Source: Fomitopsis serialis
Taxonomy: Eukaryota > Basidiomycota > Agaricomycetes > Polyporales > Fomitopsidaceae
Reading direction: 5' to 3'
DNA: 64,000 nt
NCBI RefSeq assembly: GCF_022376445.1
Contig: NW_025955072.1
Coordinates: 62,001-126,000 of the forward strand
Shown: in pieces, positions 23,279 through 49,877 of the stretch
How the letters are laid out: each line of letters starts with the position of its first letter
How positions within the stretch are numbered: the stretch's first letter is position 1
Program-made: the position numbers and the translations under genes
Notes under the pieces: model-generated
The model's database searches: none
Told to the model about the DNA's origin: nothing
What the model saw: the letters and a program-made list of their open reading frames with translations, nothing else

Positions 23279-24924
23279 ATGGCCTCGTCTGCGACGGTCC
23301 CTCTCGCGTTGGTGACGCCTCTGCCACTGCTGTAAGACTGTCCAACACAATCTGTCGGATAGCGTACTGACTGCATGAACACATGTTAGTGCCGGACCTC
23401 AGGTAGGTCGTGCAGTATCATGCATCGGGCGAATAGGACTGACGTCGTACGGCGCAGTTACTTGGTGCGTTCTTCAACTGGGACCTCCTGGGAGTCATAA
23501 CACTACAATGCTGTGAGTCGGAGCTCGTCTGTCTGTATGCGTCCTCGGCCTACACTCTCGACCAGATTCATATTACGACAACTTCAAGACCAATCGACTC
23601 TCCCTCAAATGCCTCGGTACGCACCACAGTCCGCTACCCACACACACCGAGCAACCGCTCACTGTCCCTCACCAGTGCTTAGCGTGCTCATTTTCGAGTG
23701 GGTGCAAACCGGGCTGATCACCGCAGACGAGATGCGGATCTACGTGTATGACCACGGGAACGTCATTTCAGTACTCGCATTCCACAGCACATGGTTCTCC
23801 GTGACGATCATGAGTGGACTCATCTCGGCCGTCGTGCAGATGTTCTTCGCGTGGCGGGTCTTCAAGCTGTCACGGTCGCGCGTGCTCGGCGGGTCAATGG
23901 CTGCGTTCATCGTCGCGGTATGTGCTATGTGGTGCTTCGCACACTGGGAATTGCTGACGGTGGAGTGCGGATAGCTCGCGGTGTCGCAGATGGTTGCATG
24001 TATGATCGCGAGATCGAAGGTGAGTCGCCGCTAGTGGCTAATGCCTGGACGGCCGATGCTGAAGAAGTGGATGCAGGCGAAAGCTGAGGGCATTGCTTCT
24101 GCGCTGCACGGGCAGCTGCGCACTGCCATCATCGTAAGTTTTCTGTCGGTCTCCACCTCCCATTACTCGCTTCATGGAACTTAGGTCTGGCTCACGGGCG
24201 CCGTCGCCGTCGACGTGCTGATCGCCGTGTGCATGACTTACCTGGTATGTCCCCCCACGCATTCGCCGCCAGTGTACTCAATGACGGGAGCGCAGCTCCT
24301 GAGGAGCAAGACCGGTATAGCATCAACAGACGCGCTTATCAACAGGATGGTCCGCCTAGTGGTCGAGACAGGCACTTTGACTGGTATGTCTCCACCCACT
24401 GTTCTACACGCGCCAGCGCTTGACCCGACAGGTCACTCGTAGCTAGTCTCTCGATCCTCGGCCTTATCGCCGGGAGCATCCGACCGGTGAGTGAATTCAA
24501 CTACTTCTTCGGCGAATGACGGTCGGACTGACTGTCTCAGCTGCATGAGACGTTAGTCTATGAGGTGCTTGCGTTCATCTTCACGAAGATGTAAGTCTCC
24601 TCGGAGGCGTAATGGACGTACCCCAATTAACGGCATCCAAGGTACTCGATCACATTCCTTACCAACCTCAACAGTCGCGTATACCTACGCAAGTACGACA
24701 AATCCGCAATCGAGCTCCCGTCGATGAGCGGGCTCCGTTTCGCCCATAACACCACCTCCGAGGCCCAGACGAGCACCGCGGAGATGGCGATGGCGCAGAA
24801 GAGCTTTGCACTCGTTGGCGCGACGTGGTCCGCGATGCACCGGAGGGTCGTGGACGCAGAGAGCGACGACACGGCCTCTGAGAAGTCAGAGAAACGTAGG
24901 AAGCGGCGGAACCCGACCGTGTAA
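23279..24924 (+). CDS. DUF6534 membrane protein, copy B
   Basis: Best preserved of three DUF6534 paralogues; predicted multi-pass membrane protein, biochemical role unknown. ATG at 23279 (MASSATVPLALVTPLPLL), then exons LLGAFFNWDLLGVITLQC (near 23460), IFEWVQTGLITADEMRIYVY (23690), SGLISAVVQMFFAWRVFKLS, AKAEGIASALHGQLRTAIIV, WLTGAVAVDVLIAVCMTYL, the family block STDALINRMVRLVVETGTLT, VASLSILGLI, LHETLVYEVLAFIFTKM and the tail TNLNSRVYLRKYDKS, followed by a charged end (SEKSEKRRKRRNPTV) and TAA at 24922-24924. Eight to nine short introns. The 5' splice sites before 23460 are uncertain. The junction after VETGTLT (24384) reads out of frame with the simplest GT-AG pair, as in all three copies. 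Functional status is therefore likely but not proven. Confidence 0.78.
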
Positions 24925-25485
24925 GGTTGTGGGCTCGTCTGTACTCGGATGGTCTCGGGTGGGGTGTCCGACAGTTCGAGGCCGTGGCTAAGTCACTGGG
25001 GAAGTGCGCAAATCCGCCCGTTGATTCATCCTCTCCATGCGAAGCGCCTGTCATGGAGGGCCATGTCTGAGGCTATTAACATAGCTATGGGTAATTTGAG
25101 GTGCATTGAACAGGGCTAGTATCATATGCAGGAACATATACATACATAAAACTGACCTTTCGCCGACCGCGGGCGCTTACGGTGTCTGGGTACTGGTCCC
25201 ATTCCTTGTGCATTCACGGCCTTGCTGGCCCCTTTATTGTGCGGATTTCAAAGGCATAGAGGTCGCTGAGAGGCTTTTGAGCCTATCTGGAGAGTATTGA
25301 GGGAGCTAGCGAGAGGCGAGAGAGGAACACCGTGACTGCGAGTCGCGATGTGGTGGAGGCGAGTGGCCGCAGCGGGCCCCTGTGGCGCGTACCACTGACA
25401 ATCTCTGAGTCCAAGTCAACCTTCGTGCCTCAGGATATCGGATGTCCTTGCAGTCTGATCTCCACCGTTCAACATCAGCTAGCGG
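24925..25485. other. Flank of unit B and junction to unit C
   Basis: The first ~150 bp after the DUF6534 stop match the 3' flanks of units A and C. The rest shows no gene. A copy of the dispersed repeat core lies at 25418-25441. Confidence 0.5.
25418..25441 (+). repeat. Dispersed repeat core, copy 2
   Basis: Carries the core accttcgtgcctcaggatat, also present at 20904-20957 (inverted) and 58005-58054. Only the core is shared here. Confidence 0.55.
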
Positions 25486-27504: not shown

Positions 27505-27656
27505 GGGATGGGATGGGCCGACCTCGGCCGACCGCAACTGTCTCATGGAAGGTGATCAAGTCGGCCGAGCGCAAGGCGGGCAAAGCGGCACAAGGCGGGC
27601 AAGGCGGTGCGTGGGACGATTGGCTGCCCCAGACATTCTCACCCAGCTGACCATTC

Positions 27657-28060
27657 TGTCTCGCCCAAGACAATGCACTATCCGACTCTCGGCTGGAGAA
27701 AATCTGTAGCCGACCACCGCCTTGATTCAGCCGACCTTCTTGTCTCGCCCAAGACGATGCACTATCCGACCGTCGGCTGCAAAGCTTTTGCAGCCGACCA
27801 CCGTCTTGATCCAGCCGACCTTCTTGTCTCGCCCAAGACGATGCACTATCCGACTCTCGGCTGGAGAAAATCTGTAGCCGACCACTGTCTTGATTCAGCC
27901 GACCATCTTGTCTCACCCAAGACAATGCACTATCCGACCGTCGGTTGGAGAAGGTTTGCAGCCGACCACTGTCTGGATTCAGCCGACTGTCTTGTCTCAC
28001 CCAAGACAATGCATGAGCCGAGCATCAGCTGAGGTATCTTTCCTGGCCGATATCCGTCTT
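27657..28060 (+). repeat. 84-bp tandem repeat, about five copies
   Basis: Units begin tgtctcgcccaagac or tgtctcacccaagac at 27657, 27741, 27825, 27909 and 27993, an exact 84-bp period. Each unit contains GCCGAC motifs and a variable central part. Since 84 is divisible by three, both strands show long but meaningless ORFs. Confidence 0.92.
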
Positions 28061-28070
28061 GACTCAGCCG

Positions 28071-28136
28071 ACCTTCTTGGACCTTCTTGACCTTCTTGAC
28101 CTTCTTGACCTTCTTACTCACTAAGACCTTCTTGAC
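28071..28136 (+). repeat. 10-bp tandem repeat (CTTCTTGACC)n
   Basis: About five units, the last separated by a short interruption. Directly follows the 84-bp array. Confidence 0.85.
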
Positions 28137-28313
28137 CCAAGGTAACTAATGGTTGGCTCATCTTGGTCAATACCAACGTGTTAATGAGGTATCTAGGTGG
28201 GCAAACACCAATGAGGTTTCAATGTGGAAAGTGTCAAGGAGGATATCAAAATGGCGAGCATATTGAAGAAGCCTTCTTGGAGGTGTCAAGACGGACAAGT
28301 GAAGACAGACAAA

Positions 28314-28610
28314 TCAAAACGGGCAAGTTAAGACGGACAAATTAAGGCGGACAAGTTAAGACGGACAAGTTAAGGCTGACAAGTTAAGGCTGACAAGTTA
28401 AGACGGACATTGTCAAGACGGACATTGTCAAGACGGACATTCTCAAGACGGACATCTCAAGACGGACATTGTCAAGACGGACATTGTCAAGACGGACATC
28501 TCAAGACGGACATTGTCAAGACGGACATCTCAAGACGGACATTGTCAAGACGGACATCTCAAGATGGACAAGTTGAGATGGACATCTCAAGACGGACATC
28601 TCAAGACGGA
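28314..28610 (+). repeat. 14-15-bp tandem repeat (AAGACGGACATTGTC-like)
   Basis: About twenty units, first of the form aagttaagacggac, then aagacggacattgtc and aagacggacatctc alternating. Flanked by less regular relatives from about 28260 to 28650. Confidence 0.88.
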
Positions 28611-31870: not shown

Positions 31871-32288
31871 CGTGCGAGCAGGACAGCAGGACAGCAGTGG
31901 GGCGAGGGTATGCAGGCGATAGGGTAGGCGGGCAAGACGGTATGAGCGCAAGACGGCGAGCGACAGGTCGCCTGGTGAATGAGAGGGCAAGGCGGTGCAT
32001 GAGAGTGAGATCTTGAGAGCTGACGCACTGACACGTTGAAAGTCTCCGAGTCAACGCGTCTGAACGCGTGCCCAGTTGTGACGCACCGCGCTGCACTGCG
32101 CCACGATCGCACTGTGCCAACCGACGCTTTGAGCACGCAAGAAGAGCCCAGCCGACCGTAAAAGTATTACTAGGATCACTACGGTACTGTATACATCACC
32201 CCAGCCAAACACATTATACACCTATGTCGGCTGCACGATCCTCATCGTACAAGCCGACGCGTCGGCCGCCGTCGACTCATGCGATGGT

Positions 32289-32315
32289 ATTCCGCGAGAC
32301 TGCGCGTCGGCTGTA
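32289..32315 (-). repeat. Subterminal inverted repeat, right arm
   Basis: Partner of 27478-27504 (25 of 27 bases). Confidence 0.7.
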
Positions 32316-32351
32316 GGATGAGGATCGGTCAGAAAGCGCTGCTTGGTGTGG

Positions 32352-33023
32352 CCAACAGACCCATAGCGCCGTTTCCGGCCCTCCATCTGCCTCTGCGGGA
32401 CAATCCATACACTCGCCGCATAAAGCATGGCTGGGATGAGCATCTGGAGGTATAGGGACTTCACGTGTCTCATCGGGATACCATGTTTCGGACACGCGAG
32501 GCGTCCGAATTGCAGCAGCCATGTGGTACCCTTCTTCAGGGCATACTCGGCCTGCTTTTTGAATCGCAACTTGCGATCTATCCAGACGCCCAGGAACTTC
32601 GCGTCTTCGGAGGGCTGCACTGACCCGTCCGAGAGGTCTAGTGACGGGCCCATATCGTCTTTCGGTAGACTTGGATCAGCGTGCAACAGGCACAGTTTCG
32701 AGATCTCGAAACGGGAGTTCCGCGTCCTCGACCACTCCTTCGCGCCGCCAGCGCGCTCCATGTAACTCCGTAACTTCGAGCAGGTCTCGTCTAGATCTTT
32801 TCCCACTGCCACTGTAGCCACATCGTCTATGAATCCTAGCGCCAGCTCGCCCCTCTTTTGGTCAGCGCATTTCAGCAGGACGAGGTTGTATATCTTGTAC
32901 AACAAGACCGAGAGTGGGCACCCCTGGTCGATCCCGCTGAGGATCTCAAACAGGTCCGACACGAAGTCGTCAAACGTCATGCACGTTTTGCGCCCTCTGA
33001 GCTTCTCGCGCAGCCAGTCTACC
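32352..33023 (-). pseudogene. LINE ORF2 middle part: reverse transcriptase palm
   Basis: Minus-strand coding reads VDWLREKLRGRKTCMTFDDF, LSGIDQGCPLSVLLYKIYN (RT motif B), ALGFIDDVATVAVGKD (motif C with the two catalytic aspartates, here F-I-D-D), EDAKFLGVWIDRKLRFKKQ and MLIPAMLYAASVW. It joins the upstream RT half after removal of the LTR element and the 2.2-kb element, and the RNase H part after removal of the 4.9-kb block. No stop codon in this piece. The first 8 bp (ccaacaga) are also the right target duplication. Confidence 0.9.
33019..33023 (+). repeat. 5-bp target duplication of LTR element, left
   Basis: ctacc, repeated at 39060-39064 on the other side of the LTR element. Confidence 0.88.
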
Positions 33024-33224
33024 TGTAATGCGCCTTACTCGTCGTGCCTCGTATGCGCTGCACCCAGTCTCTATTCAAGAGGTACTGTCTACAGATTGCA
33101 TACAAAGGCGGTGACGAGGTAAAGGCTCAGGACTCGTAGGTGTGCCGGCGCGCCATACGAGTCCTAGAGCAAACAAGGACAAATATGTAATGTAAGATAT
33201 ACTATAACGGGAATATCCGTTACA
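33024..33224 (-). repeat. 3' LTR (201 bp)
   Basis: Identical by eye to 38859-39059. Contains a perfect 10-bp inverted repeat (33129-33138 with 33156-33165, AGGACTCGTA/TACGAGTCCT) around a 17-nt loop and a smaller one at its edge (AACGG/CCGTT). Confidence 0.92.
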
Positions 33225-33240
33225 CTCTCCCCCACTGGAC
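33225..33240 (-). other. Polypurine tract of LTR element
   Basis: Minus strand reads GTCCAGTGGGGGAGAG immediately upstream of the 3' LTR, the place and composition expected for the plus-strand primer. This sets the orientation of the element. Confidence 0.7.
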
Positions 33241-33454
33241 ACGACCACGGGTCCCAGCGATAACCAGAGAAACAGAGAGAAAAAGGAAAGAAAGGAATAG
33301 TACATGCAACCACCCAACGGTGGTAGCAATTGGCAAGACAAAGATGATGTTGAACTGTAGACAGCGACAAACTACTTCATGTCAGTGAGCAGACACGACC
33401 GTTCACCATTGTCATACACAACTCGACAGAGTTGTGCAACCAGCATGTAGACTA

Positions 33455-36400
33455 CTACTCGGACTCCGAGTAATAGTCTGCATCTTCGGAGTTACCCTCG
33501 TCTTCAGCAGATAGTGCAGAAGAACTGTAGGTATCCTCCATCTCGGACTGCTCGTAGTAGTCAGAGACTACTACTGAGTTTGCCCCCTCAGAACCTGGAT
33601 TCGAAGAATCCCACGAGCTATGATGCTCGGACTCGGAGAGAGACTCTGACTCAACATGGTCAGAGTAATCCTCACGAGTTGTGGTACGAGGCTCCTCATC
33701 AGAGGAGTTGTACCAGTCGGAGTCATCCTGAGGTTGACTGCGAGGTGGTACAACAAGCCATCCCAGCTTGTTGTAGGCCCAATATCGCACCATCTCCATA
33801 GGTAATGGTGCAACCAGCAGAGGATCGAACTCGAGAGGAACCACTTCCAACTCCCTCTGGAAGTGGTCCCATGCTCGACGAGCTGCACGAGAATATGTCC
33901 CCAGTCGCGGGGACATCTCCTCGATTGCATGCCCACAGCTAAGTGCTGACCTCTTGCAGTGAGCCCAAATGTCCCACTCGCCAACACTCGCCGCAAAATC
34001 AGCCTCATCGAGGTCGAGGTCGAGTTGGTCTGCAAGGAGTGTGAAGCACTCCTCGCGCGACGCCTTATCCATGGGCCATTGACTCACATCGACAGTCACT
34101 GGGTGACCCCGTGCAGTCGGTACTCGGTTCAATCCCAGTACTTCGCGGCGCGAGGTACTGGCTTCCAAGGTGATGTCGTGGCTGCGATGATCACTAGTAT
34201 GCTGCACGTCGAGTCGATCGCTCGACACTCGTGGTACAGGTAGTACCTGCCTTGATGTTCGACGTGAGGCCCGTACGTCAAGCTCGATGCTTGGCGTCCG
34301 TGTCACTGCAGGATCCGAGACCAGTACCTCTTCACGCGATGTACTGGTGGTAGCGTGAGATAGGCGGCGGCCACTCGAGGCCCCGCTCCCTTCCCCTCTC
34401 AGAATAGCATCCCACTTCGTAGTGGTTGACGATTTCCCCTGCACTCGCCCCGACTCGGTCCCAATGCCATGGATAGTAGTAGGTGAACGTTGCCATTCAC
34501 CCACCTCCGTTCCGACCAGTTCCCGGAAGCGCTTCCTTGATCGGGTACGCGGCGACGTCGTCGTCGTCGTGCTAGTCGACGCGGGCACCTCACTCGAGGT
34601 GCCTGCCGTGCTGCGCACCCGCGAGAACAAATATTCGTTCTCGCTAGGTGTTCCAATTCCAGGTACTTCGCAGTACTTGGGCTGGTGCTCGCTGTCGAGG
34701 GATACAGCCAGCTCACGTCGGTCTTGCTGAACGCGACGTGCCGGTAGCACGTAGCGTCCCGACGGTCGCCCTTCGGACTCAGGTGCGGCCTGCCGTACGT
34801 CTACTGTGGTAGACGTCTCGGTCGACAGTTCGCGATCCACGGAATTGGGCTCGGACGCCATCCCCTCTTGACATTTGTTCACGACGATCGGTGGGCCCGT
34901 CGTGTTCGATGCGTGAGAGGGCGGCGACACTGTGACTAGGAAGGGTGAGTTGGCGAGTACCTCATGGTACTCGCCCTTGGCAGTGGAGGGGTCGCGTCCG
35001 CGTGTGACATCCTCTGCATGACTTGCATCGACCAACGAGGTCGATGCCTGTACTGCGTCGGATGCGGATGTTAGGGGTGCCTCGGTACTGCAACCATGCA
35101 GTCCGAGTGCACCGCGATATGCACTCTCGGGAACGACCTTGAGGTCATTCCCTAGTGAAGTGCATGGGACCGATGACGGAGGTCGCGAGTGGAACGTATG
35201 GTCGCCGGTGACATCAGCGGCGCGTCCGTTGAGCGTAGGGCTCACCATCTGTGCGTCGTGATTGCGATGCTGGTCCGTGCTGGGCGCGACCTGTAGATCG
35301 CCTCGTGAATCGGCGGTACCACTATCCTTCATGGTGAATGCCACGACAACCGATGTGGTTGTCGTGGTCGTCACCGGTGGTGGTATCGGCACAGGAGGTG
35401 GTGACGGCGGAACGAGTACCGTGAGGTACTCGCTTTTCGACTCATCGCCGATCTCCTCGGTATAAACTTCGTTCGCGAAGTAGTACGTCTGCGCGTGAGC
35501 TGTACAACCGTTGGGCACGTCGGTCGAGCAACCTCGCTCGCCAACTATATCGCAATGCATTGCCAGGCCAGGTGCGACCTGTAGGTCGCTCCATGGGCCA
35601 TCCGTACCACCATCGTACGTGGTAACTGCCACGACAACCGTGTTGGTAGTCGTGGTCGTCACAGGTGGTGGTAGTGGGATAGGAGATGGTGGTAGGGGAG
35701 GAAGAGATACGTCTAAAGAAGACGTACCTGTCGTCGAGCTATCCCGCTCGACGAGCTCATCTTCTCTTCTTGCCCTGCACCCTTCCCCCTCTCCTCCTTC
35801 TGCCTGACCTTCCTCATCTACCTCTCGTGATTCCTCGCCCTCACCCACATCGCCCTCGTCCCCGTCCTGACCGTCCTTCGGTCCTTCACGCGCTCTTCGG
35901 AGTTCGCGGGCGACCTCCGACTTGCGGTGCCTGTCATTGTCGCCAACGATATCGGGGGCCGCGGAGAGGTCGGTATGAAGCTGGGTGGGGGTCCCTAGGA
36001 GCGAGCCATCGACGAGAACTGTGAAGTTCTCGCCGGGTTGACGGTCGGGAGGCCGTTCTAGTCGGTCGGGGTTCGTAAGCGCCGGCCGCTGCACTGTTGG
36101 TAGTGCAGTAGTCGGGTCGCGATCTCGAGCTCGCGCGTTGCTCGGGAATACGCGATCGTCGGGCAGCGCGCTCGTCGGGGCACCAAGATCGCGGAGAGAG
36201 CGGTGGATGCTGTTGCTGGAGAGGTCGAGGTCGAAGTCGAGGCCGAGGTCCGCCGCTTCGTCGAGTCGGTCGGGGTTGTATCGTGGACCTGTCAGCTGAA
36301 CCGCGAGATGTTCAGCTGTCTTGGAACTACCGGGGGCTTGTACTTCCGGTTGGGAGTGCAAGTCTTCTCGGAGGTCGGCTGCGCGCGATTGGGGGCTGCT

Positions 36401-38719
36401 GGAGATGTCGTCGAGGTCGTCCCACGACCTGGCCAGCTGAACCTCAGGAGGTTCAGCTACATCGGAGCAACTGGGGGCCTGCACTTCCGTGAGGACGTGC
36501 AGGCCGTGTGGCGTCGCAGTTGGTCGAGCGATGGGCCTGCCAGACGAAGGGTCAGGGACGGTCGACGCGCAGTGGTCATAGCCACCGGGTACGTCTAGCA
36601 GTAGGCTAGGCGTACGCGCTGCACAATGGACGGTCGAAGCTGAGTAGAGCACTTCGGACATGCATCGCTGCAGGTCCGTCGTGCTGCCTCGCGAATTAGG
36701 AGGTACAACCGCAAGGTCGTCTCCTACCACATGCGCTCTGCCTTGCAGAATGGGAGGCACGACCGTTGGGTCGTCCCGTAGCGCAGACGCACCGTCTTCA
36801 TGACCAACAACGCGTACGACGAACTGAACGTTCGTCGCTACGCTTGTTGGTGCGGATGCGGGCAAGGTAGGAGGTATCGAGGTGGGTACGTCCATCAGGG
36901 GCGTACCTTCAGTTCTCGACCCTTTATGCTGGTCGGTAGCGTGTACGTCGAGCATCAATCTCGGCGTACTCGCTATCCATCGGTCGGTGATGGATGAATG
37001 GGACACGTCGGACGTGCACTGCTGCGCGTCCGCCGTGTCGCTTTGCGAGATGGACGGTACGACCACGAGGTCGTCCCGTATCCTGGGCGTACTGCCTCGG
37101 AGATTGGAGGGTACGACCGCGAGGTCGTCCCGTATCCTGGGCGTACTGCCTCGGAGATTGGAGGGTACGACCGCGAGGTCGTCCCGTATCCTGGGCGTAC
37201 TGCCTCGGAGATTGGAGGGTACGACCGCGAGGTCGTCCCGTAGCACAGACGTGCTATCCCGCGAAACATCCGGTACGACTTCGCAGTCGTACCTGGAGGC
37301 GGAAGTGCCGTCTTCGTGGTCAATAGGACGCACGACGAACCTCTCGTCCGTCGTTACGCGTGCTGGCGCGGGCACTGGAAGCGGAGGCGGCGATGCAGGG
37401 ACGTACGGTGAGTACGTGCCTGTGGTTGTCGAGCCTTCGTGCTCGTGCATCCTGCTCGCCCCGCACCCTTCCTCCCTCTGTCCCTGTGTTCCTTCCTCAA
37501 CCTCGCTACTCCTCTGCCCCCTGTCCTCCTTCCACTCTCCTTGCTCCGCGTTGTCCATGGTCCGCTCAGTCTTGCGGCTCGGCGTTGGACTTGAACGCGC
37601 GTCGTTCAAGTCCTGGGTCATGCGGCTGGGTTGCGTGTCGCCAGAGCCGCTGTGACGGTCGCCAGAGTCATCGGACTCGAAGAGGGGACCTCCCAAGTCG
37701 AGGCGCGGGACCAGAAGGGAGAGTTGAGGAGCCGGTGAGGGAGGAATTGGCGATCTGGTACCGGGAGGTACCAGGTCGTTGGTCGCCACTGACTGGACTG
37801 GCGGTAAGTCAGCCAGCCATTCGCGAACGCGAGTTCGCACTCGCGTCGGGGCGGCGCGCGCGTCTGGTTCGCCAGACGGGCGCTCGAGGTGGCTGCCCAG
37901 AGAGTGGGAGGAGGCGAGGACGAGGGGTCGGTGGTGGCGGTCGAGCGTAGTGCGGTGGGCGCTAGAACTCGGGGCGCTCACCACAGACTCGTGGCGCTCG
38001 ACGCCTGTAGCGTTGAGCGCGTCGCGCGTCGCGTCGAGCAGGCTGCTCGTCGTGGCGCGCACGGCGTTCGACGACGAATATATATATTTTGTGTCGCGGC
38101 TCATCTCTGAACACGCGACGAGCGTATCTACACGCGTGGGCTCGTTCCCACTGCACACAGTACTACTGTAGTACTGTGTGCCTATGCCCTCCCGGGTGCT
38201 GATACGAGTCAGCTCCTGGCGCTGCTCGTTCAATCCAGGCACGAGCTCGACTACGGCTACGTTGTCGAGCTCGGCGCGCTCACCACTCCTCAGAGTGGTG
38301 CCGAGCTTCATCGGCTGGGTCGAAGCAGGTGGAGAGTCGGTCTCCGGGCGGTTTTGAGCGGGCTCGACATTGGGCTCGAGCCGCTCAGTGCGCGGTGCCT
38401 GTTCGACCTCACGGTCGGACGGCGCCTGCTCTGTGAGGGCTCCGGCTGAGTCCTCGCGGTGATAAGACTCAGTCCGGGTGGTCTTCGTGCGAGAAGACCG
38501 ACTGCGGCTGCTGGCCTCGGACAGAGCGGCGTCGACCGTTGCCAGCAGTTCGGCCTCGAGTTGCTTGGATTCCTCGAGGGCTTTGTTGATCCGCTCTTGA
38601 CTTGCGGCGAGCTTTGCTCGGACTTCCGCACGCAACGCCTTCAGCTTGCTGCGGGTTCCACTGTGGGACCCGCGGCTGCCTCGCGAAGGTGCGGACGGGG
38701 TGTTGGTCGACTCGGACAT
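33455..38719 (-). CDS. 1,754-aa ORF of LTR element, unknown function, hairpin-rich
   Basis: Single uninterrupted ORF from ATG at 38719 (MSESTNTPSAPSRGSRGSHS) to TAG at 33455-33457. I do not recognise a family. Visible parts: a coiled-coil-like stretch at about residues 20-65 (KLKALRAEVRAKLAASQERI, then NKALEESKQLEAELLATVDA); a very long low-complexity middle rich in S, T, P, D, E and V; an 18-residue tandem repeat (DDLAVVPSNLRGSTPRIR, DNA period 54 bp) around residues 495-555; two related modules containing PPPVTTTTT then VVVA and DLQVAP; and a C-terminal region with Trp (SVGEWDIWAHCKR, MEMVRYWAYNKLGWLVVPP) before an acidic Ser-rich tail. No zinc knuckle and no polymerase motif. It could be a Gag-like structural protein. 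The DNA is unusually full of short inverted repeats, so its sequence may be shaped by RNA or DNA folding as much as by protein function. Confidence 0.75.
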   Translation of the reverse strand: MSESTNTPSAPSRGSRGSHSGTRSKLKALRAEVRAKLAASQERINKALEESKQLEAELLATVDAALSEASSRSRSSRTKTTRTESYHREDSAGALTEQAPSDREVEQAPRTERLEPNVEPAQNRPETDSPPASTQPMKLGTTLRSGERAELDNVAVVELVPGLNEQRQELTRISTREGIGTQYYSSTVCSGNEPTRVDTLVACSEMSRDTKYIYSSSNAVRATTSSLLDATRDALNATGVERHESVVSAPSSSAHRTTLDRHHRPLVLASSHSLGSHLERPSGEPDARAAPTRVRTRVREWLADLPPVQSVATNDLVPPGTRSPIPPSPAPQLSLLVPRLDLGGPLFESDDSGDRHSGSGDTQPSRMTQDLNDARSSPTPSRKTERTMDNAEQGEWKEDRGQRSSEVEEGTQGQREEGCGASRMHEHEGSTTTGTYSPYVPASPPPLPVPAPARVTTDERFVVRPIDHEDGTSASRYDCEVVPDVSRDSTSVLRDDLAVVPSNLRGSTPRIRDDLAVVPSNLRGSTPRIRDDLAVVPSNLRGSTPRIRDDLVVVPSISQSDTADAQQCTSDVSHSSITDRWIASTPRLMLDVHATDQHKGSRTEGTPLMDVPTSIPPTLPASAPTSVATNVQFVVRVVGHEDGASALRDDPTVVPPILQGRAHVVGDDLAVVPPNSRGSTTDLQRCMSEVLYSASTVHCAARTPSLLLDVPGGYDHCASTVPDPSSGRPIARPTATPHGLHVLTEVQAPSCSDVAEPPEVQLARSWDDLDDISSSPQSRAADLREDLHSQPEVQAPGSSKTAEHLAVQLTGPRYNPDRLDEAADLGLDFDLDLSSNSIHRSLRDLGAPTSALPDDRVFPSNARARDRDPTTALPTVQRPALTNPDRLERPPDRQPGENFTVLVDGSLLGTPTQLHTDLSAAPDIVGDNDRHRKSEVARELRRAREGPKDGQDGDEGDVGEGEESREVDEEGQAEGGEGEGCRARREDELVERDSSTTGTSSLDVSLPPLPPSPIPLPPPVTTTTTNTVVVAVTTYDGGTDGPWSDLQVAPGLAMHCDIVGERGCSTDVPNGCTAHAQTYYFANEVYTEEIGDESKSEYLTVLVPPSPPPVPIPPPVTTTTTTSVVVAFTMKDSGTADSRGDLQVAPSTDQHRNHDAQMVSPTLNGRAADVTGDHTFHSRPPSSVPCTSLGNDLKVVPESAYRGALGLHGCSTEAPLTSASDAVQASTSLVDASHAEDVTRGRDPSTAKGEYHEVLANSPFLVTVSPPSHASNTTGPPIVVNKCQEGMASEPNSVDRELSTETSTTVDVRQAAPESEGRPSGRYVLPARRVQQDRRELAVSLDSEHQPKYCEVPGIGTPSENEYLFSRVRSTAGTSSEVPASTSTTTTTSPRTRSRKRFRELVGTEVGEWQRSPTTIHGIGTESGRVQGKSSTTTKWDAILRGEGSGASSGRRLSHATTSTSREEVLVSDPAVTRTPSIELDVRASRRTSRQVLPVPRVSSDRLDVQHTSDHRSHDITLEASTSRREVLGLNRVPTARGHPVTVDVSQWPMDKASREECFTLLADQLDLDLDEADFAASVGEWDIWAHCKRSALSCGHAIEEMSPRLGTYSRAARRAWDHFQRELEVVPLEFDPLLVAPLPMEMVRYWAYNKLGWLVVPPRSQPQDDSDWYNSSDEEPRTTTREDYSDHVESESLSESEHHSSWDSSNPGSEGANSVVVSDYYEQSEMEDTYSSSALSAEDEGNSEDADYYSESE
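37057..37245 (-). repeat. 54-bp in-frame tandem repeat inside giant ORF
   Basis: Units start gtacgacc at 37057, 37111, 37165 and 37219 (last partial). Each encodes DDLAVVPSNLRGSTPRIR on the minus strand and each contains the hairpin ACGACC-GCGA-GGTCGT (first unit ACGA loop). Middle units are almost identical. Confidence 0.93.
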
Positions 38720-38858
38720 CTTGTCGAGTTGTCGAGTTGGCCAGAGGATGATCAAAGTAGCATAGAGTTTGTTGATGTCGAATTTCGAGGTTCGAGAGTT
38801 TGTTGCCTAGAGTAGATAGTCCCCAGAGAGATAGAAGCTTTTCTGGAGCGCAAAAAAG

Positions 38859-39059
38859 TGTAATGCGCCTTACTCGTCGTGCCTCGTATGCGCTGCACCC
38901 AGTCTCTATTCAAGAGGTACTGTCTACAGATTGCATACAAAGGCGGTGACGAGGTAAAGGCTCAGGACTCGTAGGTGTGCCGGCGCGCCATACGAGTCCT
39001 AGAGCAAACAAGGACAAATATGTAATGTAAGATATACTATAACGGGAATATCCGTTACA
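38859..39059 (-). repeat. 5' LTR (201 bp)
   Basis: First LTR in transcription order (minus strand); identical to 33024-33224. Its outer edge touches the duplicated ctacc at 39060-39064. Confidence 0.92.
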
Positions 39060-39080
39060 CTACCACCTCTACTGGTACCC
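39060..39080 (-). pseudogene. 21-bp remnant of LINE ORF2 between two insertions
   Basis: Minus strand codes GVPVEVV, which links RMLG (41281 side) to VDWLREKL (33023 side) in frame. Includes the right ctacc duplication (39060-39064). This tiny piece proves that the LTR element and the 2.2-kb element are separate insertions 16-21 bp apart. Confidence 0.85.
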
Positions 39081-41100: not shown

Positions 41101-41258
41101 TAGCAGTCTGACGACCATCTGAAATGGTCTGAGCAACGGTCTGAAGGCCGTCTGACATCAGAGATTGCTTCTGATGTCAGAACTAATCTCCCGTTGTCAG
41201 ACGTGAAGTCTGACGGGTCTGAAGAGTCTGAGTCAGTACTCTCAGACTGCTTCAGACA
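41101..41258. repeat. Hairpin cluster at right end of 2.2-kb element
   Basis: Perfect inverted repeats in a row: GACCAT/ATGGTC (41113-41129, loop 5), CTGACATCAGA/TCTGATGTCAG (41152-41180, arms 11, loop 7), GTCAGAC/GTCTGAC (41196-41214, loop 5), AGTCTGAG/CTCAGACT (41225-41248, loop 8). All share the TCTGA/TCAGA word. Confidence 0.85.
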
Positions 41259-41278
41259 AACTCGCAGTTTTGCTGATG

Positions 41279-43168
41279 CCCGAGCATCCGGAGCTCATGG
41301 AAGAGCCGCTCCGGGATTGCACTAGGGAACGCCGCCTCAACGTCGAGGAACAAGACTGAGGCGACCTTCTTGGCCCGCCATGCGTCCCGGATCGTCTTGG
41401 TCAGTAGGTGCAGTGAGTCAGTCGTCGTACGACCAGCTCGGCCTCCGAAGTGGAGGTTAGGAAACAGGTTAAGCTTCTCCAGCTCGTATTCCATTGTCTC
41501 AGCAACGCATGAAGACAGGATCTTCGCCATGCAGCTCATAAGAGCAATAGGCCGGTATGCCTTAGCGACGGAGTAGTCACTCTTCCCGGGTTTGCGCAGC
41601 ACTACTGTCGTAGACAGTTTCCACTGCTCGGGGTAGTAACGCAGGTCGAATGTAGCACGATAGAGAGGGCCGAGCATAGGAACTAACAGATCTGCGCACC
41701 GTTTATACACCTCATTCGGTATTCCATCTGGGCCCGGAGCCTTGAACTCTTTGAGTCAATGGCAGGCCGCGTGGATCTGGTGGTCGGAGACGTGTGCGAA
41801 GTCGAAGACGGGGGTTGGGTAGTGCTCAGCATCTGGGTCTGGGAGTTCAAGGTCGGGCGGGGGCTGCGGGAAGAATGTCTCGTATAGGACCCGGCTCTTC
41901 TCCTCGTTTCCGCGCTCGAGTTGGGCACTGCCCGGGCGATGTAGCGGCGGCACCCGGCTCTTGCTCCCATCTGTGGACCCTGCACGGATATACTTGCCGA
42001 CCGTCCAGATTGACTTAGCATCCGCTTCTTCGAGCCATGCGTCCCAGTGCGCTTTCTTGGCTGCGCGCACCTGGTCGCCGTACCTGTTCCGAAGTTGCCT
42101 GTACTCCTTGTGTATGGGGTGGTTCGGGAACTCGCGCTGTTTGAACGCGCGACGTCCCTGACGTCCGACCTCTCTCCTCAGCTTGTCAAGCTCCTTCGAG
42201 TACCATCGTTTGGCAAAAGGTGGCGGCTTCGTCTCTGGGACCGTCTCCTGAATTGTTTCCGTGAGCGTAGTCATAAGTGTCGCTAGCAATTGATCAAAAC
42301 TCTCCTTGGAGTCAATCCGTCCATTTGGTTCAGGTACGTCCTCGAGTCGTATGGCAAGTTCAGTCCTGAACTCGTTCCAGTCGACCTTCCTGAAGTTCCG
42401 GAACTTGCGTGGTGGCGCCTGGGGGACATCTAGCAGGAATGTGGTGCGGATGGGGAAATGGTCGGTGTGGGGGGGGCGTATATCCGGGGCGACATCACAG
42501 GTTAGGAGACAGTCTTTCAGGCCCTCCGATGCAAAAACGTTATCAGGGCGCGTGTGGTTCTTCGTTCGCATAGCTTCGAGGGTGGGAATACCCTGCGGGA
42601 GGAGCATGTGCATGTCGAAGGCGCTCAGCATATCGATGAGTCGATCTGCTTGGTCTAGGGCCTGATTCGTGAACAGGTGGGTGTTCCGTTCGTCGTCCCA
42701 GAGGGGGTGGTGGCGGTTGAAGTCCCCAAGCCACAGGATGTGACGCTCGGGGTCCTCATCGTCATCTCGTAGGAGCTTCCGCGTCTCCCGAGATAGGACC
42801 GCCTGAGCTAGATTGCTGTCCTGAGGGTTGTAGATATTAAAAATATGTATCGTAGAGGTGTCGAGACGGAGTGTGATCGCCGTAATGTCAGGGGACTTGA
42901 TCGGGATCGCTGTCCAGCTATTAGTAGATACGCGTTTGTTAATTAATATGACAGAGCGAGACGTAGCTTCATTATCCTTATGACCAATCGGGTAGATCAC
43001 TATCCAGTCTGCAGCCGCGCGGGTGTTGTCAAGGTGGTCGATATAGGGCTCTTGCAGGGCCACCACATCGTACTCGGCAACATCGTGAAGGAGGGCGCAC
43101 TGGGCAATGTTCGACTTGTTCACGTTGGCTTGGCAGACCTTGAGTTCCCTAGAACGTTCCATCATCAT
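41279..43168 (-). pseudogene. LINE ORF2 5' part: endonuclease and RT start
   Basis: ATG at 43168 (MMMERSRELKVCQANVNKSN). Apurinic-type endonuclease domain: CQANVNKSN, ALQEPYID (Glu), LGDFNRHHPLWDD (Asp/Asn/His), DNVFAS. Then a linker with RWYSKELDKLRREV and the RT start APGPDGIPNEVYKRCADLL, YRPIALMSCMAKILS, and motif A LFLDVEAAFPSAIPE. An in-frame TGA near 41757 lies between the endonuclease and RT (after IHAACH, before LKEFKAPGPDG) in what is otherwise one frame. The start overlaps the end of ORF1 by 20 bp, a normal LINE arrangement. Confidence 0.9.
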
Positions 43169-45306: not shown

Positions 45307-45320
45307 CATGTCCGATCGGT
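45307..45320 (+). repeat. LINE target-site duplication, right
   Basis: catgtccgatcggt, partner of 25821-25834. Directly beyond it the TSR3-C sequence resumes (gtaggatatacctggagcag). Confidence 0.9.
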
Positions 45321-45505
45321 GTAGGATATACCTGGAGCAGTACTGTCAGTGCACAGACGGCGCCGACGTCACCGCGACGCAAGATCGCATTATGCAGGAG
45401 CTAGAACAGAGTTATCAGCAGTCACGAGAAGAAGAGCAGCTGGTGAGTGTTGGCTGTGCTTCTCGATCAGCTTCTGACGTTTTGCGCAGGATACGGAAGT
45501 GATCT
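45307..45505 (+). pseudogene. TSR3 pseudogene, copy C, right half
   Basis: Continues the TSR3 copy interrupted at 25834: [20 protein letters not shown] at 45330-45390, then [17 protein letters not shown], an intron-like stretch and gatacggaagtgatcttctcg, matching the last two exons of intact TSR3. Confidence 0.88.
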
Positions 45506-46632
45506 TCTCGTTGCGACAAATCATTGAGCACGACCCCGACATTCAGCGTGTATCATCTCATGCCCTCGTGTACGGTATTTTCAAGCGTTCTTCCTCCAGC
45601 GTTGTGTCCATATCCTCCTCGCCGCCGTTCTGACTCGTGATCAGAATTGACCCAACGACTTGGGGAGGAGGAGGAGGAGGGGATTGGGGGGATCTTGCCG
45701 ATGTAATCACAGCCACGACTCGACGGCAAGATTGGCTACGATCGCTCTTATTCCGCCAGCTTTGCCCTACTGGTGAACGTTTGAACGATAATACTAACAC
45801 ACTCAACGGTTCACGGCTGTGCCCCATACTTACCCCACATAGTCCACGTCTTTTCGCACATGGCCTCCCCGTGCTCAGGTACACTGGATCGCTGGGCGTA
45901 TCAGGACATGCCTTGGACGTGCTCAGATATTGCAGATCACGTTGTGCTCTAGCCTAGGCCCCATGGCCATCAATTGCTGCGACCTAACTTTGGTCCTCAG
46001 CCATATGCGGCAGCCCAAGGCTGCAGCTCGATTGTTATCGGGTTTGTTGCTATCCTGGATGAGTCCTGAAGCACCCTCCCACTTCAAAGCCTCCGTCATA
46101 TGTTCTACTGGTGGAGCTGAGTCTCATTTCCACGTCATATTCCTGATACAGTGGATATGACTCGGAGGCACACGCATAAAGCCTGCAACTAAGGTCTCCT
46201 AGTCTCCCGCGTCTTAGCACATTGTTTAGTACTTGTTTCGGTTAATAACTGTTGAGTCCATCATCATCATATCAAAACCAAGGTCTGCCCCTGTTCGTTG
46301 GTCTGGGCTTATGTTTATGCTGATATGGACGGCACAGCCAAATAACAGATGATTTACTCATCCATGATCGAACATCGCGCGTTGCCTCGCGTTGTAGTCT
46401 CCGCTGCTGACCAAAAAAAGTTACTCTACTCGCGTTGTGCGCCCCAGGTGATCGAACTTTGTATATAGGTGAGCGGTCATCCGTACTGGGGGTGCCCTGC
46501 CCCGCACCGTGTTAGCCTCTACCTGCCGCGTCCCAATTCTGGGGAAATCTAGCTACGACTTCGTGCTCCTACGAAGTGTCCTCTTCGTTGAAGCTCCCCG
46601 ATTCACCAGCTTATAGTATCAGAACCACAGCC
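45506..46632. other. Spacer of duplicated unit C
   Basis: No gene recognised. Aligns with the spacers of units A and B. Contains a GGA/GGT-rich run (ggggaggaggaggaggagg at 45661-45679). Confidence 0.55.
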
Positions 46633-48319
46633 ATGACTTCGCCTGCGACGGTCCCCCTCGCGTTACCGACGTCTCTACCGCTGCTGTACGCCTCCGCTCT
46701 AGTCCGTCGGGTAAAGTACTGACTCTCTGCGTGGACGCATGTTAGTGCCGGACCTCAGGTTAATTGTACAGCAGCATGCATAGTGCTGAGAAGGACTGAC
46801 GTCGTACGGCGCAGTTACTTGGTGTTTTCTTCAACTGGGGTCTCCTGGGAGTCTTAACACTACAATGCTGTGAGTCGGACCTTGTCTGTCTGTATAGGTC
46901 CTCGGCCCACACTCCCGACTAGATTCATATTACGACAACTTCAATCGGACCGACCGACTCTCCCTCAAATTCCTCGGTACGCCCTCTCCTCGTTTACTGA
47001 CCACACACCGACCAACTGCTCACTGTTCCTTTACAGTGCTCAGCGTGTTCATCTACGAGTGGGTGCAGACCGGGTTGATCACGGCCGCAGCAATGCAGAT
47101 CTACGTGTACGACTACGGGAACGTCATCTCGGTGCTCGCGTTCCACAACACCTGGTTCTCCGCGACGATCATGTGCGGGCTCATCTCGGCCGTCGTGCAG
47201 ATATTCTTTGCATGGCGGATCTTCAAGCTGTCGCGGTCGCCCGTGCTGGGTGGCTCGATGGCTGCGTTCATTGTCGCCGTGCGTACTCTCTGGTCTGGTC
47301 TAATGTGCTGGGGCTGACGGTCGTTGCGGTGTGTGAATAGCTCGCAGTGGTGCAGACGATTGCATGTATAATCACGGGAGTGAAGGTCAGTCGTCGCCGA
47401 TGGCGGATGCGTACCAGATGGCTGAACCCGAGGCATTTGGTGCAGGAGAAAGCTGAAGGCATTGCTTCCGCGCTGCATGGGCAGCTACTCACTGTCGCAA
47501 TCGTCAGTCCCGTATGATCATGCACTCTCGGAAACCTGCTCATGGGCACTTAGCTCTGGCTAGGGGGGACTGTCGTAGTCGACGTGCTTATCGCCGTGTG
47601 CATGACCTACCTCGTACGTCCTCTGCGCGTTCGTTTCTCGGATATCCCCTCAATGACGCGAATGCAGCTCCTGAGGAGAAAGACAGGGATATCATCAACA
47701 GACGCGCTTATCAACAGGATGGTCCGCCTTGTGGTCGAGACAGGCACCCTTACTGGTATGTCTCTACAGCTCTCGCGTCAGCGCTCAACCTGACAGGTCC
47801 TTCGTAGCCAGTCTCTCGATCCTCGTCCTCATCACCGCGAATATCCGACCAGTGAGTCAACACAGCTGCTTCTTCGGGAGATGACGGTCAGACTGACTGC
47901 CTCTTAGCTGCACGAGACGCTAGTCTATCAGGCACCTGCGCTTATCCTCACGAAAATGTAAGTCGTCTCATAGGCATGACGGACCTCACCTTCACTCACG
48001 CTTTTCAAGGTACTCGAACACATTCCTTACTAACCTCAACAGTCGCGTATACCTACGCAAGTACACCCAATCCACATGCGAGCTCCCGCCGGCGAGCGGC
48101 GTCCGTTTCGCCAACAGCGGCACCTCGGCGTTCGAATCCTCCAGGGACCAGACGAGCACCGAGGAGATGGCGCAGAAGAGCTTTGCGCTCGCGGGTGCGC
48201 TCGAGAGCAGCCGTAGCGCGGGGTCCGCGATGCTCCGGAGGGACGCGGGCACAGAGAGCGATGACGCGGTCTCTGAGAAGTCGGAGAAGCGTAGGCAGCG
48301 GCGCAACTCGATCGTTTAA
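46633..48319 (+). CDS. DUF6534 membrane protein, copy C
   Basis: Third DUF6534 paralogue. ATG at 46633 (MTSPATVPLALPTSLPLL), then LLGVFFNWGLLGVLTLQC (near 46825), IYEWVQTGLITAAAMQIYVY (47050), LISAVVQIFFAWRIFKLS, SSTDALINRMVRLVVETGTLT (47700), VASLSILVLITANIRP, LHETLVYQAPALILTKM and TNLNSRVYLRKYTQS, with the charged tail SEKSEKRRQRRNSIV and TAA at 48317-48319. More similar to copy A in the core, but with an open tail. It has a longer acidic/Ser-rich tail than copy B. The 5' exons and the junction after VETGTLT are uncertain, as in the other copies, and some internal exons (near 47340-47620) look less regular, so it could be decaying. Predicted integral membrane protein of unknown role. Confidence 0.7.
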
Positions 48320-49877
48320 AGTTGTGGACTCCTCTGTACTCGGATGGTCTCGGGTGGGGTTTCGTTCGAGGTCGACGCTAATGGGGAAGTGCGCAGGCCC
48401 GCCCATGATTGATTGATGCGTCATGGGTGCTCCAGAAGTGGTAATTATGACATGGAGCCGTTGCGGTGTACACTTAGTCTGTGTTCAGATCTTATACCTC
48501 TGTATTTTTCGTGAGCAAGAGTTACGAACAACGATGAGCAGGACGCGAAAGACGACGAGGAGACGCGAAAGGACGCGTTTACACGGTACACGTGACCGTA
48601 GGTCGCGATTGCGCCATCGTTCGCCACCGTCTGAGTTGCAACGCCTCGCTGGATGCAACGGCCTCCTTTCCTCCTGCCCTCATCTCGCCCCGGCCCTGCG
48701 TTGTCTTCGTCACGACTATCCTCTATACCTGCTCGTTGACCTCGTCGTTTGCGACTTATCTGCCGCGGTTGGATGGTTCTCTTGGTCAAGCACGTGATCA
48801 CATTGGGCGCATACGACGTTTCCTCGATGCAAGTCTTTGACGTATCCGAGCGACGTGCATTCTCAGGCGTATCGCGTTGCCTCGCGGAGGAATGCGAGGC
48901 CCTCACAGGTAATCAGCCTTTGGCGGAATAAGGTCTAGTCGCGACGATGCGTTCGGGATGGAGATGCCCTGTGGTAAGCTGTCATGACGGACAGTCTTCT
49001 CCCGGGTGGAAGGCAGCAGGTGGGGAGCAATGGCCTACTGTGGTGCGTACTCGGATCCTGGTCTGACCCGACACTTCGCGATGCAGTCAGTGTACACATT
49101 GTGGGAGTATTCACCAGGTTTTGCTACAGGCGGCTTACCCCAATCACCGTTTGACTCTCGGCCACTGTAGGCAACTGTCTGGCCCCGCTATGTTCTGCAC
49201 GCAGTACCTTCGCTCGGCTGTCTTCGGATGTCCATGCTGCAGCCTGCCCAGCCCCTATGTCTACGCCCTCCTTATCGCCGCCGCCTTACCGTCTGTCGCC
49301 TACGTCCTCTCCCTGCGCGCTTCGACTGCTCCCCACTGGTACTCCAGGTCTTCTGTTCTGCACCATCTGGTCACCGTCGCTCTTTGTTGCGCTGTGTAGT
49401 CCAGAGTCTCTGGAACTGCTGCCTGCGGCTGCTACTCAGGCGTGTCTGCTGTTCAAGCTCCGCTCTTCTTTCTCACGAGGACTGGGCAATCTGTTGCACG
49501 CGTGCCGGTGAACGTGTGCCTCGTCCCCCTGTCGCAGGTCGTGCGCGATAGCTTTGGGGTCGCCATCGCTTCGTATTCCGAATTCTCGCCAGCGCCACGG
49601 TGTTGCGGGCGTCCTTCTGCCTGTCTCTTCCGTTGCTGCCGATGGTTCTGCCAACCTTGTCTGCGATAATCTGTGCCTACGGTCTTCTGATTCACCATGT
49701 CTGTTGCTCGGCTACTCTCCCGAGTCCCAGGAGTGCCCCCGATATGTGTCAAAATCTATGCTATCGAAGTCATGGGCGCGTAATTGAGACGATGTCTCGG
49801 TACGTTTTGTTCTGGTCTATTCCTTTCTGCTCCTCCGTGTGACCACTGCATTGTACATATTTGTTCCCCTGCTCGTC
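48320..49877. other. Intergenic; end of unit C, then no gene seen
   Basis: The first ~300 bp (to about 48615) match the flank of unit A. The rest to 49877 has only short ORFs without recognisable protein; a few pyrimidine-rich stretches. Confidence 0.5.

Follow-up and report, generated by a model that had tools for sequence, protein, structure and literature searches.

The DNA analyzed here is a stretch of 64,000 nucleotides (the window) from the wood-rotting basidiomycete Fomitopsis serialis (assembly GCF_022376445.1, contig NW_025955072.1, positions 62,001 to 126,000). Sequence reading and self-comparison identified within it a long terminal repeat (LTR) retrotransposon on the minus strand (33024–39059), with the paired terminal repeats that characterize elements of this type. 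The LTRs have TG...CA ends and, being identical over their 201 bp, mark the window copy as a young LTR retrotransposon. Between them lies a long open reading frame (ORF), which is studded with short perfect hairpins. An earlier interpretation made from the letters alone (the sequence-only reading) had described an LTR element with an open frame in which coding and hairpins coexist, and this was confirmed; a Pfam scan of the product at 1e-3 recognized no family. Since no gag or pol domain was recognized, the element is apparently non-autonomous, or else contains a gag that escapes recognition.

Perfect inverted repeats with loops of 0–8 nt were counted in the ORF (33455–38755). This analysis revealed 58, 35, 24, 12, 7 and 4 hairpins for minimum arm lengths of 6, 7, 8, 9, 10 and 11 bp, respectively, in agreement with the earlier estimates of about 50 inverted repeats in total and more than 20 with arms of 8 bp or more. 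All 12 hairpins cited as examples in the sequence-only reading were found where it had placed them, with perfect arms, and in 11 cases arm and loop lengths were as described; at 38154–38180 a hairpin is indeed present, but the proposed arm of 12 and loop of 3 were wrong (arm 14, loop 1, at 38153–38181). Shuffled sequences (60 of each kind) contained on average 1.03 (dinucleotides preserved), 2.37 (synonymous codons; maximum 8) or 0.65 (codon order) hairpins with arms ≥8, compared to the 24 observed. In a larger set of 1000 synonymous shuffles (mean 1.86, maximum 8) none reached the observed number, which was 23 in this case (frame ends slightly different). The codon- and dinucleotide-preserving shuffles proposed in the sequence-only reading therefore fail to reproduce the hairpin number, and the three kinds of shuffle together rule out chance, composition and codon bias as its source.

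Two backgrounds were used for comparison, namely the window outside the element, with 14 hairpins with arms ≥8 in 57,962 bases, and four integrase-bearing elements of the same genome, with 6 in 21,004 bases (mean 0.29 per kb). The hairpin design is thus not general to the LTR elements of F. serialis, as judged from this small sample (n=4). Hairpins occupy approximately 12% of the bases of the ORF for arms ≥8 and approximately 20% for arms ≥7 (loops up to 14). With loops of up to 12 nt allowed, those with arms ≥8 are distributed over the three codon registers as 11, 10 and 5; since all registers are used, and one hairpin lies in non-coding sequence past the stop codon, the hairpins are a feature of the nucleic acid itself. 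Imperfect stems are also common in the ORF. Strictly regular spacing of the hairpins was considered and rejected (pooled coefficient of variation about 0.86).

A protein search of the F. serialis assembly (66 Mb) detected at least 112 matching stretches among the best 27 of 475 candidates. In 20 further copies (L009–L028) the density of hairpins with arm ≥8 and loop ≤8 is 3.1–5.4 per kb of the longest frame, and each copy exceeds all 25 synonymous shuffles of its own longest frame; in 7 of the 20 this frame has a length of 1686–1865 amino acids (aa). Divergence from the window reaches 24% in the aligned parts of the copies. LTR pairs were compared in 19 copies (window included), 18 of which, a few being possibly duplicates or alleles, showed identities of 0.97–1.00; the value of 0.80 for L022 is an artefact of a fetched piece that cuts the second LTR, and four other pieces had one LTR. 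Since diverged copies carry near-identical LTR pairs, diverged lineages have moved recently. A 4-base match flanks 17 of the 19 two-LTR copies, and this target-site duplication lengthens to 5 bases when the LTR edge is placed at TGTA (judged by eye in the window, L009, L010, L011 and L015). Copies L010 and L012, located on different contigs, have the duplication and 8-base flanks alike on both sides, and L028 and L037, also on different contigs, share 8 flanking bases at one end; both observations suggest that some contigs of the assembly are duplicates or alleles. An LTR search, in which the best 40 of 82 candidates were scored, provided nine extra loci: L029 and L033–L037 contain the hairpin ORF or parts of it, L030 and L031 break off beside the LTR, at a contig end, and L032 corresponds to the outer side of the C44 copy.

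The copies were then used to compare the rates of change in arms, loops and flanks. In a comparison of the window with 15 diverged copies, which is biased towards the reference in that perfect stems were demanded in the window, 6.3% of sites differed in arms, 20.1% in loops and 19.0% in flanks (7.5%, 22.4% and 24.0%, respectively, at four-fold degenerate sites). Because of this bias, divergence was remeasured among nine other copies only. For the hairpins defined in the window it amounted to 0.080 in arms, 0.199 in loops and 0.182 in flanks, i.e. an arm/flank ratio of 0.44 (confidence interval, CI, 0.31–0.59; bootstrap over 25 hairpins) and a loop/flank ratio of 1.09 (0.82–1.36). Hairpins defined in L011 gave an arm/flank ratio of 0.42 (0.33–0.52). 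Perfect pairing was retained in 101 of 167 hairpin-by-copy cells, compared to 955 unchanged segments among 5077 geometrically matched controls. The ratio of nonsynonymous to synonymous divergence (dN/dS) outside the hairpins is 0.73 in the N-terminal part of the protein, 0.69 in the middle and 0.27 in the C-terminal part (aa 1481–1766), indicating that most of the protein is weakly constrained. Given these values and the lowered synonymous divergence of codons within hairpins, protein constraint is not the cause of the slow arms; evolution has kept the hairpin stems more strictly than most of the encoded protein. The examination of other copies suggested in the sequence-only reading, like the shuffles, did not refute its view: many arms are conserved or change together, although hairpins also appear and vanish between copies.

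Compensatory series were observed at single loci, with arms changing from ACGTCTAC/GTAGACGT to ACATCTAC/GTAGATGT, from CACAACTC/GAGTTGTG to CATAACTC/GAGTTATG, and from GGTACGTCC/GGACGTACC to GGTACGTCT/AGACGTACC; at other loci the hairpin is simply disrupted in part of the copies. Across 84 loci, 57 two-sided Watson-Crick changes were counted along with 378 one-sided changes, compared to 687 and 7218 for chance pairs (odds ratio 1.58, p 0.003). When stems with more than one unpaired pair were excluded from a set of 253 loci (arm ≥7) in 27 sequences, a condition that favors paired states, 76 two-sided and 259 one-sided changes were counted (control, 877 and 8731). Pairs with both bases at third codon positions were unchanged in 81% of cases (67% in controls) and showed two-sided paired changes in 4.1% (2.7%). 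Possible loop inversions were found in 8 of 196 loop pairs (4.1%, compared to 1.9% in the null), a count that derives from five hairpins of reference sequences (a single site may underlie two of them) and is supplemented by one 12-nt loop recognized by eye; loop inversion is therefore suggestive only.

The C-terminal domain has relatives with 38–48% identity. One of them, L040, contains a 1279-codon ORF with 9 hairpins, compared to 1.04 in shuffles (maximum 2, 50 shuffles), and in L041 and L042, whose frames are broken, 8 hairpins were found in 5.2 kb and 13 in 4.5 kb, respectively. For three of the window hairpins this distant family has counterparts at homologous sites, with stems kept and loops differing: (i) the hairpin at the DHFQR motif (counterparts in L040, L041 and L042), (ii) the hairpin across the stop codons (L040 and L041), and (iii) the hairpin at the SVVVSD motif (counterparts of 9 bp in L041 and of no more than 5 bp in L040; the motif was not located in L042). 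As a separate observation, L040–L042 reuse one stem, CAGTACATCC/GGATGTACTG, with variable loops of 6–8 nt; L040 has three perfect copies of it (arm 10, loop 8).

The geometry of the hairpins (arms ≥8) was compared with that of chance stems from shuffles, for which arms ≥7 were accepted. Loops of 4–5 nt were found in 63 of 152 stems, compared to 157 of 1094 chance stems, and closing pairs C-G and G-C occurred in a ratio of 83:24 (chance, 483:310). Loops of the form GNNA, read on either strand, made up 22 of 41 four-base loops (chance, 34 of 103; p 0.025), with 12 and 10 of the 41 on the two strand readings. Local folding of the window ORF was much stronger than in 20 codon-preserving shuffles, with z-scores of −14.4 (sense) and −26.3 (antisense); the sense values for L011 and L022 (20 shuffles each) were −15.7 and −10.9, and in all three copies the antisense value was at least as extreme as the sense value. 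The abundance of A and C in 5′ arms was considered as evidence of strand and dropped: chance hairpins lean alike (211:125), and since an inverted repeat keeps its arm order on either strand, this lean is of no use for the purpose.

Table 1. Features of the LTR retrotransposon in the window, listed in the 5′ to 3′ direction of the element.
Feature	Coordinates	Strand	Basis or remark
Target-site duplication GGTAG, 5′ side of element	39060–39064	-	Sequence reading; same letters at 33019–33023
5′ LTR, 201 bp, TGTAACGG...TTACA	38859–39059	-	Identical to 3′ LTR
ORF, 1766 codons, TTG start 38755, first ATG 38719; hairpin-bearing	33455–38755	-	ORF list, Pfam scan
Hairpin, arm 8, loop 4	38281–38300	-	Perfectly paired in 12/17 aligned sequences, window included
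Hairpin, arm 10, loop 12	38242–38273	-	Inverted-repeat search, copy alignment
Hairpin, arm 14, loop 1	38153–38181	-	Inverted-repeat search, copy alignment
Hairpin, arm 8, loop 4	37827–37846	-	Inverted-repeat search
Hairpin, arm 8, loop 4	37755–37774	-	Inverted-repeat search
Hairpin, arm 11, loop 5	37587–37613	-	Inverted-repeat search
Hairpin, arm 9, loop 4	37272–37293	-	Inverted-repeat search
Hairpin, arm 8, loop 5	36817–36837	-	Compensatory A-T to G-C in L020/L021
Hairpin, arm 9, loop 12	36476–36505	-	L017/L019: loop looks inverted, stem damaged too
Hairpin, arm 11, loop 2	36435–36458	-	Inverted-repeat search
Hairpin, arm 9, loop 8	36293–36318	-	Inverted-repeat search
Hairpin, arm 8, loop 4	36013–36032	-	Perfect pairing in 18/19 aligned sequences
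Hairpin, arm 9, loop 6	35731–35754	-	Inverted-repeat search
Hairpin, arm 8, loop 4	35413–35432	-	Inverted-repeat search
Hairpin, arm 11, loop 5	35341–35367	-	Inverted-repeat search
Hairpin, arm 9, loop 5	35025–35047	-	Inverted-repeat search
Hairpin, arm 10, loop 4	34952–34975	-	Other copies: loop as gtga or inverse tcac
Hairpin, arm 8, loop 4	34797–34816	-	Compensatory G-C to A-T in L017, L019, L025, L026
Hairpin, arm 8, loop 8	34621–34644	-	Inverted-repeat search
Hairpin, arm 8, loop 4	34584–34603	-	Inverted-repeat search
Conserved C-terminal domain, 219 aa	33458–34114	-	Homologue comparison
Hairpin, arm 8, loop 6	33895–33916	-	Inverted-repeat search
Hairpin, arm 10, loop 8, DHFQR motif	33840–33867	-	Perfect in 20/20 aligned sequences; homologous hairpin in L040–L042
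Hairpin, arm 10, loop 7	33749–33775	-	Inverted-repeat search
Hairpin, arm 8, loop 8	33643–33666	-	Inverted-repeat search
Hairpin, arm 9, loop 3, SVVVSD motif	33554–33574	-	Homologous hairpin: L041 9 bp, L040 only 5 bp
Stop-codon hairpin, 19-bp arm with two mismatches, perfect core 33456–33472	33445–33483	-	Homologous in L040, L041
Hairpin, arm 8, loop 4, non-coding, directly past stop codon	33417–33436	-	Compensatory variants in copies
Polypurine tract GTGGGGGAGAG adjoining 3′ LTR	33225–33235	-	Sequence reading
3′ LTR, 201 bp	33024–33224	-	Identical to 5′ LTR
Target-site duplication GGTAG, 3′ side	33019–33023	-	Sequence reading

The design of this element is a matter of observation: hairpins are in excess, in all 20 further copies, their arms change slowly and their loops freely, compensatory changes occur, and a second family is built alike. 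From the sequence comparisons it is highly probable that the folded stems are under selection. The evidence favors folded hairpins over palindromic binding sites, with both RNA and cDNA as candidates for the folding molecule. The stems would represent short folded units, acting independently of their sequence, in the single-stranded genomic RNA and/or the first cDNA strand. Since no gag or pol domain was recognized, the handling of this RNA or cDNA by another element is the most natural place for them to act, and they would most likely aid packing, compaction or reverse transcription by proteins of that element. Template switching during copying would probably create, invert and re-perfect stems, and selection would retain those that work. 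That the hairpins serve packaging or reverse transcription in particular is put forward tentatively. The statement as a whole, i.e. a selected hairpin chain in a non-autonomous element that aids handling by the proteins of another element and is renewed by template switching, is in our judgement evenly balanced between being right and wrong. We propose only with reserve that the whole coding region is a selected array of dozens of diverse, strand-symmetric Watson-Crick hairpins, in which the fold is the main inherited trait over most of the ORF and the functional fold is perhaps that of cDNA as much as of RNA.

Several observations weigh against this interpretation. Conservation is weaker for hairpins defined in L017 (arm/flank 0.58, CI 0.37–0.79) and L022 (0.69, CI 0.42–1.00). 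Hairpins turn over, with 84 separate loci (arms ≥8) defined over 17 reference sequences, many of which are missing or imperfect in some copies. The compensatory excess over the 84 loci, taken without conditioning, is modest (odds ratio 1.58), and two-sided paired changes compared to two-sided unpaired ones gave p 0.064. The folding energies are those expected of a selected RNA structure, but the expected tolerance of G.U pairs was not found: where no more than one pair of a stem was unpaired, G.U and A.C occurred 81 and 111 times (control, 2346 and 2562; p 0.13), and two further comparisons, each with its own control, gave 19:37 (p 0.06) and 100:144 (p 0.07). Enrichment is mild in L045, representing a further branch (6 hairpins; mean 1.12, maximum 5 of 200 shuffles). 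Finally, no autonomous partner with the same LTR was identified among the best 40 of 82 candidates of the LTR search or from the junctions of polypurine tract and LTR. The junction pattern occurs at 34 places genome-wide (13 outside the fetched set), none of which, by eye, lies within 8 kb of an integrase match; the nearest one noticed is at 9.9 kb, on C788, outside the LTRs.

The most probable of the alternatives is a purely mutational origin. In this view reverse transcriptase, through template switching or through copying primed from hairpins, would keep writing and homogenizing inverted repeats in a weakly constrained ORF, and the hairpins would be functionless. Such a process explains the perfect arms and the missing wobble pairs, is consistent with the use of every codon register and with the possible loop inversions (4.1% compared to 1.9%), and agrees with the preference for 4–5-nt loops and C-G closing pairs, since four-base loops are described as enriched among template-switch-like changes (PMC8794818). 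A precedent, with an argument for conversion, is provided by an account of nematomorph mitochondria (PMC6649704). However, unbiased conversion between arms should leave them with the rate of their flanks (by argument, not simulation), and the ratio observed is 0.44; at four-fold sites, in the reference-biased measure, arms change at about one third of the rate of flanks. The hairpins at homologous sites in a family at 38–48% identity, and the lack of excess in the four integrase-bearing elements, also speak against mutation alone, which we regard as unlikely. Compensatory changes and a few loop inversions are seen, yet arms are slower than flanks. The template switching suggested in the sequence-only reading is supported as a partner process, by the hints of loop inversion and the compensatory changes, but by itself it does not predict slow arms.

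Constraint on double-stranded DNA, either as palindromic sites for a dimeric protein or as cruciforms, would explain why pairing is Watson-Crick with no preference for wobble, and hence strand-symmetric, why GNNA loops are about equally frequent from either strand (12 and 10 of 41) and why inner arms tend to the form ACC-loop-GGT. It is nevertheless improbable: the arm sequences are mostly distinct, and arms of 7–14 and spacers of 1–14 (the limits searched) are unlike a binding site, while the preferences in loop length and closing pair indicate folding. An ordinary selected structure of the sense RNA, ordered on a genome scale as in some RNA viruses, fits the strong local folding, the conservation of synonymous sites in stems and the compensatory changes. 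In ordinary selected RNA stems G.U is tolerated more than A.C; here G.U is no commoner than A.C (3 compared to 9 in imperfect window stems, a count with no control), and ordinary folding of the sense RNA is therefore an incomplete explanation. Together with antisense z-scores that match or surpass the sense ones in all three copies examined for folding, this makes such a structure just as improbable. The RNA fold needed by the element, as put forward in the sequence-only reading, is favored as a fold but weakened as a plain fold of the sense strand. The excess of A.C, which corresponds to G.T on the opposite strand, points to the minus strand as a hint, not as a result. A role as decoy for, or protection from, RNA interference or a different host defense would draw on the dense structure and on nothing more direct, and is very improbable, stems of 8–14 bp being short as substrates for Dicer-type enzymes. 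An origin in repeated peptides, in composition or in codon bias, for which the recurrence of related hairpins (e.g. at EYLTVL, EYHEVL and ENFTVL) and the 54-bp tandem repeats at 37051–37309 might be cited, is refuted by the synonymous shuffles, which keep protein and codon use (mean 1.86, maximum 8), and by the use of all registers.

The hairpin chain was compared with known systems. Large retrotransposon derivatives (LARDs) and other non-autonomous LTR elements, as presented in PMC7215508, likewise have no recognizable gag-pol domains and are presumably mobilized in trans; conserved RNA structure is stated there for LARDs and for terminal-repeat retrotransposons in miniature (TRIMs). LARDs resemble the present element in being non-autonomous with a conserved, structured internal region (here, conserved hairpins with no pol domain). 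They differ in being described as lacking protein products, whereas a conserved ORF of approximately 1,700–1,900 codons is open here in several copies, is studded with perfect hairpins and is flanked by LTRs of 201 bp. The coding palindromes of nematomorph mitochondria are also numerous perfect inverted repeats within coding sequence; they are reported to reach 284 bp in respiratory genes, the scarcity of imperfect long repeats being read as a sign of conversion (PMC6649704). In the element of F. serialis, by contrast, arms have 7–14 bp, dozens occur per gene, the gene belongs to a mobile element and encodes a protein under weak constraint, imperfect stems occur frequently and arms evolve more slowly than their surroundings. 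Template switching is described as able to create and maintain RNA stems (PMC8794818), and the hairpins attributed to it (PMC8794818, PMC8604942) share with those found here perfect stems, compensatory changes, inversions of loop or spacer and the preference for four-base loops; it is, however, a mutational mechanism and not an element, and alone it does not predict slower arms. Genome-scale ordered structure in RNA viruses, as outlined in PMC3695492, is similar in extending genome-wide and through coding sequence, but differs from the short, nearly perfect stems, with no preference for G.U, of this LTR retrotransposon.

A literature search revealed no retrotransposon of such design in the titles and abstract openings found, most subscription papers being outside its reach; as far as the searched literature goes, a multi-kilobase ORF built of dozens of perfect, selected hairpins is new. 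In this element nature has combined dense local folding with protein coding on one stretch of more than 5 kb, a design that can be traced across about 20 copies, most of them carrying near-identical LTRs, and in at least one further, distant family. It may serve as a test bed for two questions: (i) whether the hairpins that pervade mobile RNA genomes function in packaging or in copying, and (ii) how far perfect stems with compensatory changes are written by template switching in reverse transcription rather than by selection.

Pfam searches with parts of the ORF and with its homologues at E ≤1 gave weak matches only, all below the cut-off, and the best match of the C-terminal domain among solved structures had an E value of 0.17. 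The structure predicted for this domain is poor (mean predicted local distance difference test score 46). Eight homologous proteins, all from F. serialis, were found in a large database, in a search that may miss relatives elsewhere, as two of its three rounds scored the best 8000 candidates by shared words; P0008 is a distant homologue (31% identity over a short stretch). No relative was found in the viral contigs searched. At 37051–37309 the ORF contains in-frame tandem repeats with a spacing of 54 bp (about 4 units), encoding DDLAVVPSNLRGSTPRIR; each unit holds one perfect 6-bp stem, and the array is not seen in that form in the homologue P0001. The tandem stops TAG TAG sit within the 3′ arm of the stop-codon hairpin, as they do in L040 and L041, so that stop and stem are superimposed.

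The LTR itself contains a 10-bp stem, AGGACTCGTA/TACGAGTCCT, with a loop of 17 nt (the stem region was compared across 15 copies). This loop includes GGCGCGCC, and stem variants in L014 and L020–L023 yield A.C mismatches.

The element appears to be inserted in a non-LTR retrotransposon, whose endonuclease ORF (41756–43168) was recognized by Pfam; 32222–32980, which has no Pfam match, we take from a familiar motif to be its reverse-transcriptase part. Self-comparison of the window also revealed stretches of up to 1.9 kb with 78–88% identity, in both orientations, at 6056–9849, 21184–25033 and 45316–48413, which are probably other mobile elements. Two tandem-repeat arrays (self-comparison offsets of approximately 84 and 42 bases) are present at 27644–28610, with a 12-bp perfect palindrome at 27772–27798. 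Outside the LTR element, a pair of perfect hairpins (arms 12 and 8) at 41151–41248 adjoins the ORF 41252–41710.

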